23,627 nucleotides of DNA, from IMG/VR virus record IMGVR_UViG_3300017773_000145, positions 1 through 23,627 of that record; one strand, written 5' to 3'. The notes below the pieces were generated by a model. It did no database searches and was not told the DNA's origin. It worked only from the letters and a program-made list of their open reading frames with translations. This document shows, piece after piece, positions 15,748-23,035 of the stretch (its first letter is position 1; each line of letters begins with the position of its first letter). The position numbers were made by a program, and so were the translations under genes. This DNA is from a virus.

Positions 15748-15942
15748 TTACTGAGGAATTTTTACTCGATCACCTATCCAGTGCAAATATGGGCCAATAT
15801 TGACCTCTGGTTCCTGCGCGGTGTACCACCTGTAATCGCAGGTATTGCAATGGCGGCGACGGACTGTTTCGTAGGGGCCTTCAACAGTTCTCTTGGTGCT
15901 CACAACTGATATGCGAAGCGAATGGCATTTCGGGCAATGCAT
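15748..15942 (-). CDS. Zinc-ribbon protein, NrdR N-terminal-like
   Basis: A 64-aa protein, MHCPKCHSLRISVVSTKRT, then VRRRHCNTCDYRWYTAQEPE. The CPxC...RRRxCxxCxxRxxT layout is that of the zinc ribbon at the start of the NrdR repressor and of related small phage proteins. The ATP-cone that NrdR uses to sense nucleotides is absent. The ATG at 15942 is preferred over an in-frame TTG at 15969 because the ribbon starts at the second residue. It overlaps the end of the upstream 83-aa gene by 62 bp. It may bind DNA; the target is unknown. Confidence 0.6.
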   Translation of the reverse strand: MHCPKCHSLRISVVSTKRTVEGPYETVRRRHCNTCDYRWYTAQEPEVNIGPYLHWIGDRVKIPQ

Positions 15943-16132
15943 GAGCGGAAAGGCGAAGAATTTGATCAATTTCTTTTAGTTGGCCCGAAATAAACTCATA
16001 AGTTGATTCAGGTAAGGGCTCAACATCTTCGAGGGTGTTATCAAGAACTGCACGCGATACAGCCAAAGATTGATCAAGAAGCGTTTGCAGGCGAAAGATT
16101 ACAGGCCGTTGCCTGACTGTGTGGAGTTTCAT
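15881..16132 (-). CDS. Small helical hypothetical protein
   Basis: An 83-aa mostly helical protein (RLQTLLDQSLAVSRAVLDNT, then an EFISGQLKEIDQILRLSAHA helix). The Cys-rich end (HISCEHQENC) lies in the overlap with the zinc-ribbon gene. Its ATG is directly adjacent to the TGA of the upstream 169-aa gene. No family is recognised. Lack of spacing and the coupled start place it in the same transcription unit as the replication initiator. Confidence 0.55.
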   Translation of the reverse strand: MKLHTVRQRPVIFRLQTLLDQSLAVSRAVLDNTLEDVEPLPESTYEFISGQLKEIDQILRLSAHALPEMPFASHISCEHQENC

Positions 16133-17524: not shown

Positions 17525-17944
17525 ATGCGTTACGACATCGAAATTTCAGGAATCGAAGCCGCACCGCAAGGATCAAAAATTCGCACTCGTTACGGGATGC
17601 GAGAAGCCTCAGAACGTGTCGGGCCTTGGAGAGACGCCGTGCGAGTTGAGGCATTAGCTGCCTGCGGAGAGTTGATTGAGCAAGCCTGCAGCGTCGCCGT
17701 TGAGTTTCGGTTTTTGCGCCCTAAGGGTGATTTTGGGGCCAAAGGGTATTTGCGTCCATCAGCTCGCACGCACTACACGGCCAAAAAAAACGACATCGAC
17801 AAGTGTTGCCGGAGCTTGCTTGATGGGCTGACTGGGGCGGCATTTACCGACGATTGTTACGTGGTGGTGCTGAGTGCTTGTCAGAGATACTGCCTGCCTG
17901 GGGAACGTCCAGGGGCAACTGTGACGATTGAAACTCTGTCCTAG
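17525..17944 (+). CDS. rusA: RusA-type Holliday junction resolvase
   Basis: A 139-aa protein, the normal RusA size. It cuts four-way junctions and branched DNA during phage recombination and packaging. Visible family features: an N-terminal strand and GIEAAPQGSKIRTR loop, a central helix, and KKNDIDKCCRSLLDGL with Asp 90 and Asp 92, then FTDDCYVVVL with Asp 109/110. These match the spacing of the essential E. coli RusA aspartates 70, 72 and 91. The ATG at 17525 is chosen because the domain starts there; an upstream TTG (17477) would translate through the terminator hairpin. No Shine-Dalgarno is seen. It fits functionally with the RecE/Rad52 module downstream. Confidence 0.9.
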   Translation: MRYDIEISGIEAAPQGSKIRTRYGMREASERVGPWRDAVRVEALAACGELIEQACSVAVEFRFLRPKGDFGAKGYLRPSARTHYTAKKNDIDKCCRSLLDGLTGAAFTDDCYVVVLSACQRYCLPGERPGATVTIETLS

Positions 17945-18003
17945 TACCTACCAAAGACCTACCAAGTGGGGCCATATTGGTTGCAGATCAGTCAACCACC
18001 CCG
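17921..18003 (+). promoter_or_regulatory. Repeated promoter/leader module, copy 1 (partial upstream element)
   Basis: CTACCA at 17948-17953 and 17959-17964 (11-bp period), 8 bases, CATATT (17973-17978, -10-like), 14 bases, CAACCACCCC (17993-18002), one base, then ATG. The upstream GTGCCAA...CACAA part is decayed here (GTGACGA at 17921 at the same distance) because it overlaps the end of rusA. Confidence 0.6.
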
Positions 18004-18231
18004 ATGTTCAGCCCCACCGCAGTCATCAACGCCGCCATCGTCACCGGCCTGCCTGAAGGCTGGGAGCACTCCGAAGCAGCTGCTGGTTTCTTTGGGCCAG
18101 ACCTCGCAATGGTCGAGGCCAAAGCGACCCGCAAAGGCTTTGTTTGGGAGGCCACTACCCCTGACCTCGATTACAAAACCTTTGGGCCCACCAAGGTGTT
18201 CGCAGCCATGGCCTGGGCAGAGGCAAACTGA
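18004..18231 (+). CDS. Small cassette protein 1, unknown function
   Basis: A 75-aa protein: MFSPTAVINAAIVTGLPEGW, a Gly/Phe turn (GFFGPD), a charged strand-like middle (VEAKATRKGFVWEATT), and an Ala-rich helix at the end. No signal peptide, membrane segment or known motif. The start is set by the CAACCACCCC leader one base before the ATG, the same arrangement as three other genes nearby; a longer in-frame TTG start would cross the -10-like box. A strong intrinsic terminator follows the stop, so it forms a self-contained promoter-gene-terminator unit. Confidence 0.7.
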   Translation: MFSPTAVINAAIVTGLPEGWEHSEAAAGFFGPDLAMVEAKATRKGFVWEATTPDLDYKTFGPTKVFAAMAWAEAN

Positions 18232-18262
18232 GCACAAGGGGCTAATGCCCCTTTTTTTGTGC
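18232..18262 (+). terminator. Intrinsic terminator after cassette gene 1
   Basis: Stem GGGGC/GCCCC with TAAT loop and seven T, starting right after the stop codon. Flanking GCACAA and TTGTGC can extend the stem. The TTGTGC arm is also the beginning of the next promoter module, so the two elements share bases. Confidence 0.85.
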
Positions 18263-18340
18263 CAACCTAAAAAGCTGCACAATCCCTACCACTTGGCTAC
18301 CAGCAAGAGCCATACTTAGCTCAGTTCAGCCAACCACCCC
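18259..18340 (+). promoter_or_regulatory. Repeated promoter/leader module, copy 2 (complete)
   Basis: GTGCCAA (18259-18265), 12 bases, CACAA (18278-18282), 3 bases, CTACCA (18286-18291), 5 bases, CTACCA (18297-18302), 8 bases, CATACT (18311-18316), 14 bases, CAACCACCCC (18331-18340) touching the ATG. If CATACT is the -10 box, GTGCCAA...CACAA falls at about -64 to -41, the UP-element position, and the first CTACCA falls at about -35. Confidence 0.7.
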
Positions 18341-18580
18341 ATGAACCTCTCCACCTTCTTCGCTGAGAAAGACTTCACGATCAAGACCTACGAAATCACC
18401 AGCCCTACGACCGGCGACTCGCACATCATCACCACCGACGTTGTGATTGATCGCATCCTCAGCACCAAGGGCCAAGAGCGTCAGCAGATCACCGGCATCC
18501 TTCAGCAACTGGATTTCCGCAACGGCGATTTTCACCACTTCTTCAAGCACCTGGCCACTGGCCTCGCTGCTCAGTTCTGA
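18341..18580 (+). CDS. Small cassette protein 2, unknown function
   Basis: A 79-aa protein: MNLSTFFAEKDFTIKTYEIT, GDSHIITTDVVIDRILSTKG, then QQITGILQQLDFRNGDFHHF and a hydrophobic helix end. It appears to be a beta-strand N-terminal half followed by helices, soluble, with no recognised motif. It shares the opening MNL and the whole upstream module with cassette gene 4 but the proteins are otherwise different. It is flanked by a complete promoter module before and a small GC hairpin after. Confidence 0.7.
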   Translation: MNLSTFFAEKDFTIKTYEITSPTTGDSHIITTDVVIDRILSTKGQERQQITGILQQLDFRNGDFHHFFKHLATGLAAQF

Positions 18581-18595
18581 GGCCCTCGGGCCTTT
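18580..18595 (+). terminator. Weak hairpin at the stop of cassette gene 2
   Basis: AGGCC/GGCCT stem with CTCG tetraloop, starting on the last base of the stop codon, but followed by only two further T. It may pause or process RNA rather than terminate strongly. Confidence 0.4.
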
Positions 18596-18625
18596 CCGGG
18601 GATAACAGAGAGGAGTCGCCAGCTT

Positions 18626-18679
18626 ATGGGCGCAGGCTTGCCAACCCCGGCTTTATCCACCCCTGTTTTATGGAATTAA
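18626..18679 (+). CDS. 17-aa leader peptide overlapping the alpha-CTD-like gene
   Basis: The ORF MGAGLPTPALSTPVLWN starts at an ATG 10 bases after AGAGGAG, the best Shine-Dalgarno in this stretch. Its stop overlaps the start of the next gene by 10 bases in another frame. The next gene's own ATG lacks a Shine-Dalgarno, so translation of the leader could deliver ribosomes to it. Real translation is inferred. Confidence 0.4.
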   Translation: MGAGLPTPALSTPVLWN

Positions 18680-19023
18680 CAAAACCCCAGCTGTCCTACG
18701 TGGCCAGCTTGATCCGTGAAGACTTGGCCAATGGGGTCATGGCTTGGGACACCCGAGAGGGCCAGTCCCTAACCCGCGAAGACATCCGCGAATTGTGCGA
18801 AGCCCTAGAGCCACCAAAAAAGGAAAGCTTGCATGAGATGCCGCTTGACCGGCTAATGCTGCCAATCCGTGCTCATAACGCTCTATGGCGGCGTGGTTAC
18901 AAAAACGTCGGGGCTGTCATGGCGTTGACCCGTAGAGACCTGCTGTTGATTAGCCACGTCGGTGAGGGCAGCGCCGACGAAATCTTGGCCGCTATCGAAA
19001 ACCTTCGGGAGGAACTGCAATGA
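18670..19023 (+). CDS. RNA polymerase alpha C-terminal-domain-like protein, possible transcription regulator
   Basis: A 117-aa protein. Residues 57-113 align without gaps to the bacterial RNA polymerase alpha-CTD (MPLDRLMLPIRAHNALWRRG, GAVMALTRRDLLLISHVGEG, SADEILAAIENL). Residues matching the E. coli UP-element contacts R265, N268, G296, S299 and E302 are present as R67, N70, G98, S101 and E104; K298 is replaced by Gly 100. The N-terminal 50 residues form a different helical region (LTKPQLSYVASLIREDLANG), not the alpha assembly domain, so it cannot replace alpha itself. It could bind promoter DNA or compete with host alpha-CTD. Its stop overlaps the next ATG (ATGA), so the pair is co-translated. 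Confidence 0.8.
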   Translation: MELTKPQLSYVASLIREDLANGVMAWDTREGQSLTREDIRELCEALEPPKKESLHEMPLDRLMLPIRAHNALWRRGYKNVGAVMALTRRDLLLISHVGEGSADEILAAIENLREELQ

Positions 19024-20054
19024 GCAAACCAAACAGATACCTGAATCCCATGTACGACCACGACCACGGCAATAGTCAGGACAAGATCCAAAAACGTCGT
19101 TCTTGGTTGCACGACAAGATGACTCAGATGGGCCACCACCCAGACGAATATAAAAAATGGCATGAGGAATTAGAAACCCTCAAGCAGCATCCGAAACACG
19201 CCGAGCGGGAGCCAATCGTAAGGACTGAAAAATTTGCCGTTAGGCCTGCGGCAATCCTTAAAGATGGAGCATCCCTTAGAAGATGCACAGCATACGAGTT
19301 AGAGATCCTGCGAAAGTTTGTTTATGACGAGATCAGCAGACGCGCAACTGCTAGGCACAAGATCAAAATGCAACGAGTGGAACAGATCTTGCTGGGCTAC
19401 AAAAGACGGGGATGGCTACCCGAGTTTGAAGCATTTGTAGAAGTGCGCCGTGTGATTGTTCAGCAAAAGATTTTTGGGATGGGCAAGAAACGCGCCGCCA
19501 AAGAACTAAACGACCAAATCATCCGGGCTATGTGGCGAGGCGACAAGCAGCCATGGGACAAGCATCAAGGCATTGGCGCGATGCCCAGAGGACATTTTGG
19601 CTATGAACCAGGCAAGAAAAGCAAGACTCACTATTACTTGGATCCGAAACAGCTGCTCTGTCATGTCATTAACCAACGGAAGTACCAAGCCCAAAAAAAG
19701 CGACAACAAGCAGAGGCAGCCGCCGAACGAAAACGCTTCCACGAGGCAAAGATAAAAGAATGGGAGGAAAGGAACAAAGCCCGATCAGCAGAAGTCGCTC
19801 AAGAATGGCATCAGCAGATAAGTAAGCAGAACAAGAAGTTTCGGCAGGCCTTGGCGAAGCACGAGGAGATAAAAGCTGAGTTGTTAGCAAGGAAAGACCG
19901 CTTGGTATCCGAAGAAAACAGGGCCGGCAGCTATGAAGTTGCGATGCACACTCAGCGGCTGCTGGCAAAGCATGTGATGAACACTATCCCTGTGCCAATT
20001 AACGAGCCTCCACAATCCCTACCAAACACCGACCAGCAGGTGCAAAATGGATAG
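19020..20054 (+). CDS. 344-aa highly basic protein of unknown function, co-translated with the alpha-CTD-like protein
   Basis: Unrecognised. The N-terminal 60 residues are His/Asp/Lys-rich (NPMYDHDHGNSQDKIQKRRS). Residues 85-190 look folded (YELEILRKFVYDEISRRATA, LPEFEAFVEVRRVIVQQKIF). Residues 190-230 contain MPRGHFGYEPGKKSKTHYYL. Residues 230-310 are a long coiled coil dense in K, R, E, A and Q. The tail is Pro/Asn/Gln-rich and is encoded by the upstream half of promoter module copy 3, so the last 20 codons are probably shaped by regulatory DNA. The high charge suggests nucleic-acid or polymerase binding; the ATGA overlap links it to the alpha-CTD-like gene. Confidence 0.72.
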   Translation: MSKPNRYLNPMYDHDHGNSQDKIQKRRSWLHDKMTQMGHHPDEYKKWHEELETLKQHPKHAEREPIVRTEKFAVRPAAILKDGASLRRCTAYELEILRKFVYDEISRRATARHKIKMQRVEQILLGYKRRGWLPEFEAFVEVRRVIVQQKIFGMGKKRAAKELNDQIIRAMWRGDKQPWDKHQGIGAMPRGHFGYEPGKKSKTHYYLDPKQLLCHVINQRKYQAQKKRQQAEAAAERKRFHEAKIKEWEERNKARSAEVAQEWHQQISKQNKKFRQALAKHEEIKAELLARKDRLVSEENRAGSYEVAMHTQRLLAKHVMNTIPVPINEPPQSLPNTDQQVQNG

Positions 20055-20071
20055 GCCCACGCAACCACCCC
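19992..20071 (+). promoter_or_regulatory. Repeated promoter/leader module, copy 3 (inside the end of the 344-aa gene)
   Basis: GTGCCAA (19992-19998), 12 bases, CACAA (20011-20015), 3 bases, CTACCA (20019-20024), 5 bases, CGACCA (20030-20035), then CAACCACCCC (20062-20071) touching the ATG. CACAATCCCTACCA is identical to copy 2 over 14 bases. The -10-like box is not clear here (AAAATG at the matching place). The spacing is the same as in copy 2 although this copy is mostly coding. Confidence 0.6.
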
Positions 20072-20218
20072 ATGGATCTTGGCTCTAGCTACCTGAAAGC
20101 CCTTGTGGCCCACCAGGAAGAACTTGACCGCAAGGTACAAGAACAGCACCAGCAACTAGTCAAAGGCCTCAACCAGTACCTGGCCCAGGAGCGCAAGCGC
20201 CTGGAGTCTATCGACTGA
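20072..20218 (+). CDS. Small cassette protein 3, helical
   Basis: A 48-aa protein that looks like one long amphipathic helix or coiled coil: MDLGSSYLKALVAHQEELDR, then a Gln/Lys-rich heptad-like stretch and LAQERKRLESID. Its ATG touches the CAACCACCCC leader, and a UUCG-loop terminator begins 4 bases after the stop. No family is recognised. Like other short helical phage proteins it could act by binding a host protein, but nothing in the sequence shows that. Confidence 0.68.
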   Translation: MDLGSSYLKALVAHQEELDRKVQEQHQQLVKGLNQYLAQERKRLESID

Positions 20219-20222
20219 CCCT

Positions 20223-20244
20223 GGGGGCTTCGGCCCCTTTTGTT
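20223..20244 (+). terminator. Intrinsic terminator after cassette gene 3
   Basis: Stem GGGGC/GCCCC closed by a TTCG tetraloop and followed by TTTTGTT. It is directly followed by the GTGCCAA of promoter module copy 4. Confidence 0.8.
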
Positions 20245-20325
20245 GTGCCAACCCAAAAGGCTGCACAAGGGGTACTAGTCACCTACCAGGGCGGGGTCAT
20301 ACTGACTTCAGTTCCAACCACCCCA
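20245..20325 (+). promoter_or_regulatory. Repeated promoter/leader module, copy 4 (complete)
   Basis: GTGCCAA (20245-20251), 12 bases, CACAA (20264-20268), 3 bases, GTACTA (20272-20277), 5 bases, CTACCA (20283-20288), 9 bases, CATACT (20298-20303), CAACCACCCC (20315-20324), one base, ATG. The first 26 bases starting at TTGTGC differ from copy 2 at only two positions. Confidence 0.7.
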
Positions 20326-20493
20326 ATGAACCTCTGGACCCCCGAACGCTGCAAGACCATCTCCACCCTGGTCTTGATGGACAACTCCCTCGAAATGAGT
20401 TCCCAGGCAGTCACTACCAACAACTCCGCAAGGAAAGACCGCCTGATGTCCATCGTCGAAATGATCCAAGCCGAACTGCGTTCCCGCGTCTGA
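20326..20493 (+). CDS. Small cassette protein 4, unknown function
   Basis: A 55-aa protein: MNLWTPERCKTISTLVLMDN, a Ser/Thr/Asn-rich middle, and a C-terminal helix (KDRLMSIVEMIQAELRSRV). It is soluble with no known motif. The start is placed one base after CAACCACCCC; a longer in-frame reading would translate the promoter module. It shares the opening MNL with cassette protein 2 only. A GC-rich TTCG hairpin follows the stop. Confidence 0.68.
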   Translation: MNLWTPERCKTISTLVLMDNSLEMSSQAVTTNNSARKDRLMSIVEMIQAELRSRV

Positions 20494-22098: not shown

Positions 22099-22790
22099 TG
22101 GACATGTCAACAATGCCTCTCGATCAAGCTGCCAAGGAATCCTTGGCTGCACCGCTTGACCTCAACAACGTCAAAAAACGCAAGGGTGCTGGGAATCGCA
22201 CGCTTGACTACATCTCCGGCGAACACGCCATCTCAGAAGCCAACCGAATCTTTGGATTTGATGGCTGGAGTAGTGAAACCCTTGAAATGAAATGTGTAAA
22301 CGAAAAGCAGCCCACTTACATCGCCCGCGTTCGCGTCCGTGCCGGTGGTGTTACCCGTGAAGGCTGGGGAGGTGATAACAGCCACGACCATGAAAATGCC
22401 GTTAAAGGTGCCGAGACCGACGCGATCAAACGAGCCCTGCGGACGTTTGGCAACCAGTTTGGTTTGCCCTTATATGACAAGGAAGAGAACGCCGAGAACC
22501 TGACCCGTGGGTCAGAGCCTGCACCAAAGCCCCGGCCAACGCCTAGCCCGGAGTTCAAGCGCACTCAAGAGATCGTCGAAAAAGACATCAAAACGGGGCC
22601 CTTTTACATCTGGGAAACCAAAATTAAAAACGCTGGCCCTGGTTCCAACTGGATGGCCATGGAAGCCGCCATTCGCAATGGCAAAGACAAAAATGGAAAC
22701 GATGCTGGATTAACCGACGCCCACAAACAAGACCTAATGAAGGCGTATAAGGCAAGAAAAGCCGAAGTTGAAAAGGTTGCAACGGCATGA
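22098..22790 (+). CDS. Rad52-like single-strand annealing protein
   Basis: A 230-aa recombinase that pairs complementary ssDNA produced by the exonuclease. Residues 20-130 show the Rad52/Rad22 pattern: LDLNNVKKRKGAGNRTLDYI, SEANRIFGFDGWSSE, ARVRVRAGGVTREGWGGDN, and the signature HDHENAVKGAETDAIKRALR followed by TFGNQFGLPLYDK. The C-terminal 90 residues are Pro/Lys-rich then helical and probably bind partners. ATG at 22098 overlaps the previous TAA (taATG). Exonuclease and annealing protein in one coupled pair is the usual phage recombination arrangement. Confidence 0.9.
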   Translation: MDMSTMPLDQAAKESLAAPLDLNNVKKRKGAGNRTLDYISGEHAISEANRIFGFDGWSSETLEMKCVNEKQPTYIARVRVRAGGVTREGWGGDNSHDHENAVKGAETDAIKRALRTFGNQFGLPLYDKEENAENLTRGSEPAPKPRPTPSPEFKRTQEIVEKDIKTGPFYIWETKIKNAGPGSNWMAMEAAIRNGKDKNGNDAGLTDAHKQDLMKAYKARKAEVEKVATA

Positions 22791-23035
22791 CCATGATCCA
22801 GGCCAACTATGACCCGAACTATTCCGGGCCCTACTTTTCTGAACAGCAGCTAGCGCAGCGGTGGGGCAAACACCCCAACACCCTGCGCCGTTACCGACAG
22901 GCAGGCACTGGGCCCGCTTTCTACGAAGTGCGGCAGGTCTTTGGCCCCCGCGCCCCACGCATCAGATACAAGCTTCACGACGTGCTGGCCTTTGAGCTGG
23001 CCAACTCCATTACCCCCGACAAACTCAATGGCTGA
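22787..23035 (+). CDS. Helix-turn-helix DNA-binding protein, excisionase/MerR-like
   Basis: An 82-aa protein with the HTH_17-like pattern YFSEQQLAQRWGKHPNTLRR, YRQAGTGPAFYEVRQ, and a final IRYKLHDVLAFELAN. The PxxYxxSxxLAxxW...TLRRWRxxGxGPxxxK...VRYxxxDVxxFE layout is shared by excisionase, AlpA and small phage regulators. Here the loop between wing and helix is longer by a FGPRAP segment. It begins in the stop of the Rad52-like gene (ATGA). With no integrase in view, a role as transcription regulator is as likely as excision. Confidence 0.72.
   Translation: MTMIQANYDPNYSGPYFSEQQLAQRWGKHPNTLRRYRQAGTGPAFYEVRQVFGPRAPRIRYKLHDVLAFELANSITPDKLNG

Follow-up and report, generated by a model that had tools for sequence, protein, structure and literature searches.

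The closest precedents for the element described here are the promoter-early stem-loop cassettes (PeSLs) of T4-type phages (Arbiol 2010 and Comeau 2014, as cited in PMC4503421) and the start-associated sequences and extended start-associated sequences (SAS and ESAS) of cluster K mycobacteriophages. The latter are multi-copy elements found where unrelated non-structural genes begin, and the upstream part of ESAS varies in consensus by subcluster, which is read there as a change in DNA-binding specificity (PMC3203893, PMC12699233). At the level of the protein, Apl recognises direct repeats with a spacing of 10-11 bp and represses two promoters (PMC7498355), BldC forms head-to-tail filaments on DNA and regulates promoters (PMC5859096), and RdfS, which also forms head-to-tail filaments, represses its own promoter and activates as well (PMC11963761). 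Here we describe a promoter-like module present in four copies in a 23.6 kb IMG/VR fragment (record IMGVR_UViG_3300017773_000145; the window hereafter, meaning the entire stretch of 23,627 nucleotides), together with an 82-aa phage protein of the HTH_17 family, HTH17, which is its putative regulator. The module works like both PeSLs and SAS/ESAS and fails defining features of each. What it adds is a gene exchange that is sharp at the ATG behind fixed promoters, and an array of repeats that co-varies with a named phage protein.

PeSLs, as described in that source, are promoter-terminator composites repeated between small genes, a build that the module may share, and like the module they are tied to gene shuffling. 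PeSLs have early sigma70 promoters and belong to T4-type phages, whereas here the nearest terminases are those of cyano-siphoviruses and class A, the promoter class of the window, has no -35 hexamer; moreover, the phage is a siphovirus, exchange takes place at the ATG with the promoter fixed, and the 11-bp array co-varies with a putative phage regulator. The likeness to SAS/ESAS lies in the multiple copies at the starts of unrelated genes and in an upstream part that differs between groups. However, SAS is a 13-bp sequence (GGGATAGGAGCCC) with a Shine-Dalgarno core to which the window has 0 matches at up to 2 mismatches, and ESAS is made of 17-bp inverted repeats where the present module has direct repeats 11 bp apart. 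The passages of PMC3203893 and PMC12699233 on these elements name no cognate protein, whereas a candidate phage protein is available here.

A preliminary description of the window had proposed four copies with fixed spacing, and this is borne out. The composite GTGCCAA-N12-CACAA-N3-CTACCA-N5-CTACCA is found on the plus strand only, at 18259, 19992 and 20245 with 0, 1 and 2 mismatches, respectively, against a mean of 0.00 in 100 dinucleotide shuffles, an expectation that covers three of the four copies. Module 1, at 17948, has the CTACCA pair only, because its upstream half falls within rusA; what had been taken for a decayed half is the 3′ end of that gene (stop 17944), a stretch much alike in relatives. 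Exact CTACCA pairs stand at 17948 and 18286, but the pair also reported for the copy at 20245 begins there with GTACTA. The spacer from array to -10 measures 8 bases (17948, 18286) or 9 (20245) as proposed, and additionally 7 at 19992, before CAAAAT. In agreement with the description, CAACCACCCC stops 0 or 1 base short of each ATG (18004, 18341, 20072, 20326), and the 75, 79, 48 and 55 aa proteins behind the modules fall in separate families. The features concerned are as follows.

17948..18003, plus strand: module 1; CTACCA at 17948-17953 and 17959-17964, -10 CATATT at 17973-17978, leader CAACCACCCC at 17993-18002
18004..18231, plus strand: 75-aa gene behind module 1; other genes take its place in relatives
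18236..18258, plus strand: GC stem-loop with T-run, terminator-like, adjoining module 2
18257..18340, plus strand: module 2; TTGTGCCAA at 18257-18265, GCACAA at 18277-18282, CTACCA at 18286-18291 and 18297-18302, -10 CATACT at 18311-18316, CAACCACCCC at 18331-18340
18341..18580, plus strand: 79-aa gene (phrog_6004, function unknown), occurring behind six promoter classes
18670..19023, plus strand: stand-alone protein of 117 aa like the C-terminal domain of the RNA polymerase alpha subunit (alpha-CTD; Pfam PF03118, 1.5e-11), a possible partner
19992..20071, plus strand: module 3; GTGCCAA at 19992-19998, CACAA at 20011-20015, CTACCA at 20019-20024, CGACCA at 20030-20035, -10-like CAAAAT at 20043-20048, CAACCACCCC at 20062-20071
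20072..20218, plus strand: 48-aa gene behind module 3
20223..20241, plus strand: GC stem-loop with T-run adjoining module 4
20243..20325, plus strand: module 4; GTGCCAA at 20245-20251, CACAA at 20264-20268, GTACTA at 20272-20277, CTACCA at 20283-20288, -10 CATACT at 20298-20303, CAACCACCCC at 20315-20324
20326..20493, plus strand: 55-aa gene behind module 4
22787..23035, plus strand: HTH17, an 82-aa HTH_17 winged-helix protein, the proposed regulator and putative binder of the 11-bp array

Stem-loops with T-runs adjoin modules 2 and 4. Modules 1 and 3 instead run over coding sequence, the latter within the final part (3′ end) of a gene for 344 aa. The region has no excess of terminator-like matches over shuffled sequence (7, against 5.9).

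The fragment was assigned to a cyano-siphovirus with S-H1 and KBS-S-2A among its relatives, in a family of marine cyanophages that infect Synechococcus-type bacteria. The nearest terminases are those of cyano-siphoviruses, with identities of about 50% to KBS-S-2A, S-H1 and MED4-184/P-HS2, and comparison of its DNA with phage records gave no useful match. Relatives were gathered by a search with the 79-aa protein, yielding 41 viral loci, and by scanning IMG/VR with two patterns, yielding extra contigs with different genes behind the module. In all, 97 modules were typed in relatives and fall into seven classes, A (window), A′, E, D, C, B and S, of which S comprises the isolates S-H1 (7 copies) and KBS-S-2A (2 copies). 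Most relative groups hold several copies of their own version, and a -10-like CATAMT or TACAWT precedes the 79-aa gene in nearly all relatives. The association with gene starts, for which a search of relatives had been suggested, holds in the complete relative G001 (39,225 bp, 77-bp terminal repeat): exactly four copies are present, at positions as in the window and none besides, each preceding a gene. In an exact-match scan, none of 84,980 species genomes of bacteria and archaea contained the module, in line with the predicted phage-specific promoter class, and a host origin of the module was rejected on this result.

Two observations concern individual relatives. The modules of S-H1 (21105, 21519, 13962, 8231, 7064, 6500 and 3533) have the same general build, and some of them precede unannotated open frames where the annotated genes on the opposite strand may be wrong. 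Six further phages, termed class F (L060, L075, L076, L077, L037 and L038), carry one unrepeated promoter, GGGGTATACCCCATAATTA, before the 79-aa gene.

Across classes the module consists of constant outer parts, TTGTGCCAA...GCACAA, CATAMT and TCAGTTCA...CAACCACCCC, with a variable hexamer array between them; some 85 upstream bases are conserved, at a nearly constant distance from the -10. When A, A′, E and S are aligned on the -10, they have in common, roughly 50 bases upstream, TTGTGCCAA or a comparable GCC core, then GCACA or GGCACA at about 32 bases upstream, and a TNAGNTCAGTTCA-like initial sequence downstream; CAACCACCCC before the ATG is common to A and A′ and partly to E. The array reads CTACCA in A, CTGCA/RGCA in A′ and CGAGCA/CGCGCA in E, and GTGCCA also occurs as an array hexamer; the CTACCA pair of the preliminary description is one of several array types. 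Its repeats lie 11 bp apart, with lag-11 signals over random windows of the same genomes of z 4.5 in A, 7.0 in E, 3.5 in D and 1.8 in A′ (p 0.04); this phasing was absent in B and C by the same test. Besides its direct repeats, class A has a single inverted pair of 6 bp (TTGTGC/GCACAA). A -35 hexamer is missing from classes A, E and S (best match of 6: 2.50, 1.86 and 2.50, versus 2.34 in shuffled sequence), A′ is slightly over the shuffled value at 3.25, and the hexamer is present in D (4.33) and C (5.00).

The leader measures 17-25 bases. It is C-rich before the ATG (17993-18002 and equivalents) and without a Shine-Dalgarno sequence in A, A′ and E, and is C-rich in B too. A hairpin-like stretch, for example GGGCAGGGATGCCC or GGGGGCGACCCC, lies between -10 and ATG in classes D, C and F (L074 6853-8137; L082; L060).

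The genes behind these promoters are exchangeable. The promoter stays and the gene is replaced from the ATG on; the breakpoints fall either on the ATG itself or within the leader. The 97 modules precede 34 protein families, and 67 promoter pairs at least 85% identical precede proteins without detected similarity; both numbers are slightly high, since the 34 include a few fragments and near variants scored separately, such as the two MTVHTLLLD proteins. Contigs L089 and L094 agree at all 95 of the 95 bases leading up to the ATG, and their identity falls to 32% beyond it. Conversely, the 79-aa gene, which is found behind six of the seven promoter classes, is 93% identical from the ATG on between the window (A) and L082 (C), with 26% identity upstream. 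For the gene beginning MFILQLDRVG the junction lies within the leader, because this gene brings its own leader hairpin. Since homology begins or ends exactly at the ATG, genes are shuffled behind fixed promoters. Cassettes had been envisaged to spread with their accessory genes; genes are indeed shuffled between related phages, but movement of promoter and gene as a single unit is contradicted by the sharp junctions.

The array co-varies with HTH17. The protein was traced in 33 close contigs, and array type tracks HTH17 allele in 21 of the 21 contigs holding both, which represent few independent lineages. The window-type allele (HPNTLRRYRQAG...RAPRIRY) goes with CTACCA arrays in all eight contigs with readable modules, the LARYR[RK]HG allele with the CTGCA/RGCA arrays of A′ in 10 of 10 contigs, and the E allele with the E array in both E contigs, while a hybrid allele in L120 goes with mixed arrays. 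Most informative is L062, which has array A and an HTH17 that is 93% identical to that of the window and 72% to those of A′ genomes; its rusA, HTH36 and 66-aa genes and its exonuclease are closer to A′ genomes, unlike its HTH17. Neighbouring genes track the array type less closely: the class label changes once on the HTH17 tree and twice on the tree of each of five neighbour genes, and a single A clade was rejected by the approximately unbiased (AU) test for rad52 (p 0.042). As the repeats change together with the HTH_17 protein, this protein probably controls all of the copies. The activator had been left as either phage or host, and the pairing of allele and array points to the phage's own protein. 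Almost no modules were found near more distant HTH17 relatives (L137-L184), and the pairing is therefore established for the close group only.

An HTH_17 match was obtained for nine of nine aligned members (best 2e-6; window protein 5e-5), and the structural model of the protein resembles RdfS, BldC-DNA and Pukovnik Xis, its nearest folds (Foldseek probability 0.97-0.99). The HTH_17 array binders (Apl of phage 186, RdfS, Pukovnik Xis and BldC) resemble HTH17 in fold and small size, in having repeats spaced by about one turn and, as proposed for HTH17, in regulating promoters, and HTH17, RdfS and the excisionases have this domain family in common. Direct repeats about one turn apart are present in A and E (and D) and weak in A′. 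Unlike those systems, the present one involves several promoters and not an att site or a switch, and specificity classes could be followed across related phages. Nor was the partner integrase of an excisionase (recombination directionality factor) found: a PF00589 search, which did not include serine integrases, detected no tyrosine integrase in the complete G001, S-H1, KBS-S-2A or G012. Phage morons are likewise small additional genes, each bringing a promoter and a terminator of its own; here, unlike in morons, a single promoter type and a single proposed regulator serve many genes, and G001 gave no tyrosine integrase.

We infer that the module copies are phage promoters read by host sigma70 polymerase, and that HTH17 binds the array and activates, a reading to which we give a probability of roughly 55%. 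Each copy, with its CATAMT -10, no -35 and a leader of 17-25 bases, would be read by the host sigma70-type RNA polymerase, the hexamers 11 bp apart being placed in the -35/spacer region. HTH17 may bind them head-to-tail with one protomer each helical turn, probably polymerising on the array, and would most likely take the place of the absent -35, making the copies fire jointly as one regulon of swappable small genes. Activation is favoured because the -35 is missing. Recombination would swap the gene from the ATG onward and leave the promoter in place, and a change in HTH17 specificity would be followed by the arrays of that genome. One may speculate further that an excisionase-family protein, with no integrase detected, has turned master regulator, that its specificity and all its promoters switch jointly between phages and that the regulon acts as a socket able to take up any small gene at its ATG; we hold this combined view to be slightly less probable than its opposite.

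Several observations weigh against the reading that HTH17 binds the array and activates. The window protein scores 23.9 bits, below the curated Pfam cut-off of 27, its model has moderate confidence (predicted local distance difference test, pLDDT, 74), and none of its fold matches in the PDB reaches E 0.001. The AU test is only partly supportive of co-variation specific to HTH17, as a single A clade was not rejected for SSB (0.093), the 66-aa gene (0.126) or the exonuclease (0.656). The contigs of class A are for the most part near kin, so the co-variation rests chiefly on L062/L118 and L120, and L066 and L120 each hold two array types in one genome. The class D array is phased, yet no HTH17 relative was detectable there, and class S (S-H1, KBS) has HTH17 without clear 11-bp phasing, judged by eye only, the spacing looking nearer 10 bp. 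Finally, Apl represses and does not activate, and the array overlaps the promoter core, a site also suited to a repressor.

Repression of the kind exerted by Apl is the main rival. With the same promoters and the same pairing of HTH17 and array, HTH17 would silence the early genes on accumulating, like Apl/Cox at P2-like promoters. The overlap of the array with the -35/-10 region, the repression of two promoters by Apl through direct repeats 10-11 bp apart (PMC7498355), autorepression by RdfS (PMC11963761) and the location of the HTH17 gene downstream of module 4, which would permit feedback, all agree with it. However, the -35 hexamer is missing from A, E and S but present in C and D, which fits a need for activation, and RdfS activates as well (PMC11963761). 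We regard repression as a serious but clearly less probable explanation, at about one chance in four.

Still less probable, though not negligible, is that the array is read by a host regulator, such as a PhoB/OmpR-type response regulator, or by a different phage protein, and that HTH17 co-varies through linkage only. Direct repeats are targets of some response regulators (PMC5859096), class D has its 11-bp repeats without a detected HTH17 relative, and the alpha-CTD-like protein is confined to A and A′. Against this, the array sequence varies among related phages and tracks a phage gene, the alpha-CTD-like protein does not distinguish A from A′, and no host genome held an exact match. That the element serves chiefly for translation, or as a site for recombination in the manner of a start-associated sequence, its promoter-like parts being incidental, is improbable: it ends exactly at the ATG, its C-rich leader is conserved in several classes and breakpoints lie at the ATG, but about 85 upstream bases are conserved at near-fixed spacing from the -10, terminator-like stem-loops adjoin two copies, good -35 hexamers are kept in C and D, and the leader is without a Shine-Dalgarno sequence.

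These findings bear on the question of how phages acquire and express many small unknown early-region genes, for which the expression socket, its ATG junctions and a candidate regulator can now be named. The natural specificity classes predict the pairing of regulator and promoter. Since modules of the same kind are carried by the cultured relatives S-H1 and KBS-S-2A (Synechococcus WH7803), these predictions are testable in a laboratory host. The modules also serve as a sequence tag for locating cyanophage accessory genes.

Other candidate readers were considered. A phage sigma factor was rejected, Sigma70_r2 being absent from the complete G001 and from S-H1; a sigma70-type factor is encoded by the class D phage G012 (4521-4739) and by KBS-S-2A (L068 7779-8708). 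The alpha-CTD-like protein, which had no match in the phage record collection, occurs in classes A and A′ only, and was rejected as a specificity factor since its presence in both fails to separate the array types. Elsewhere in the window, 15748-15969 encodes a protein with the zinc-ribbon part of NrdR only.

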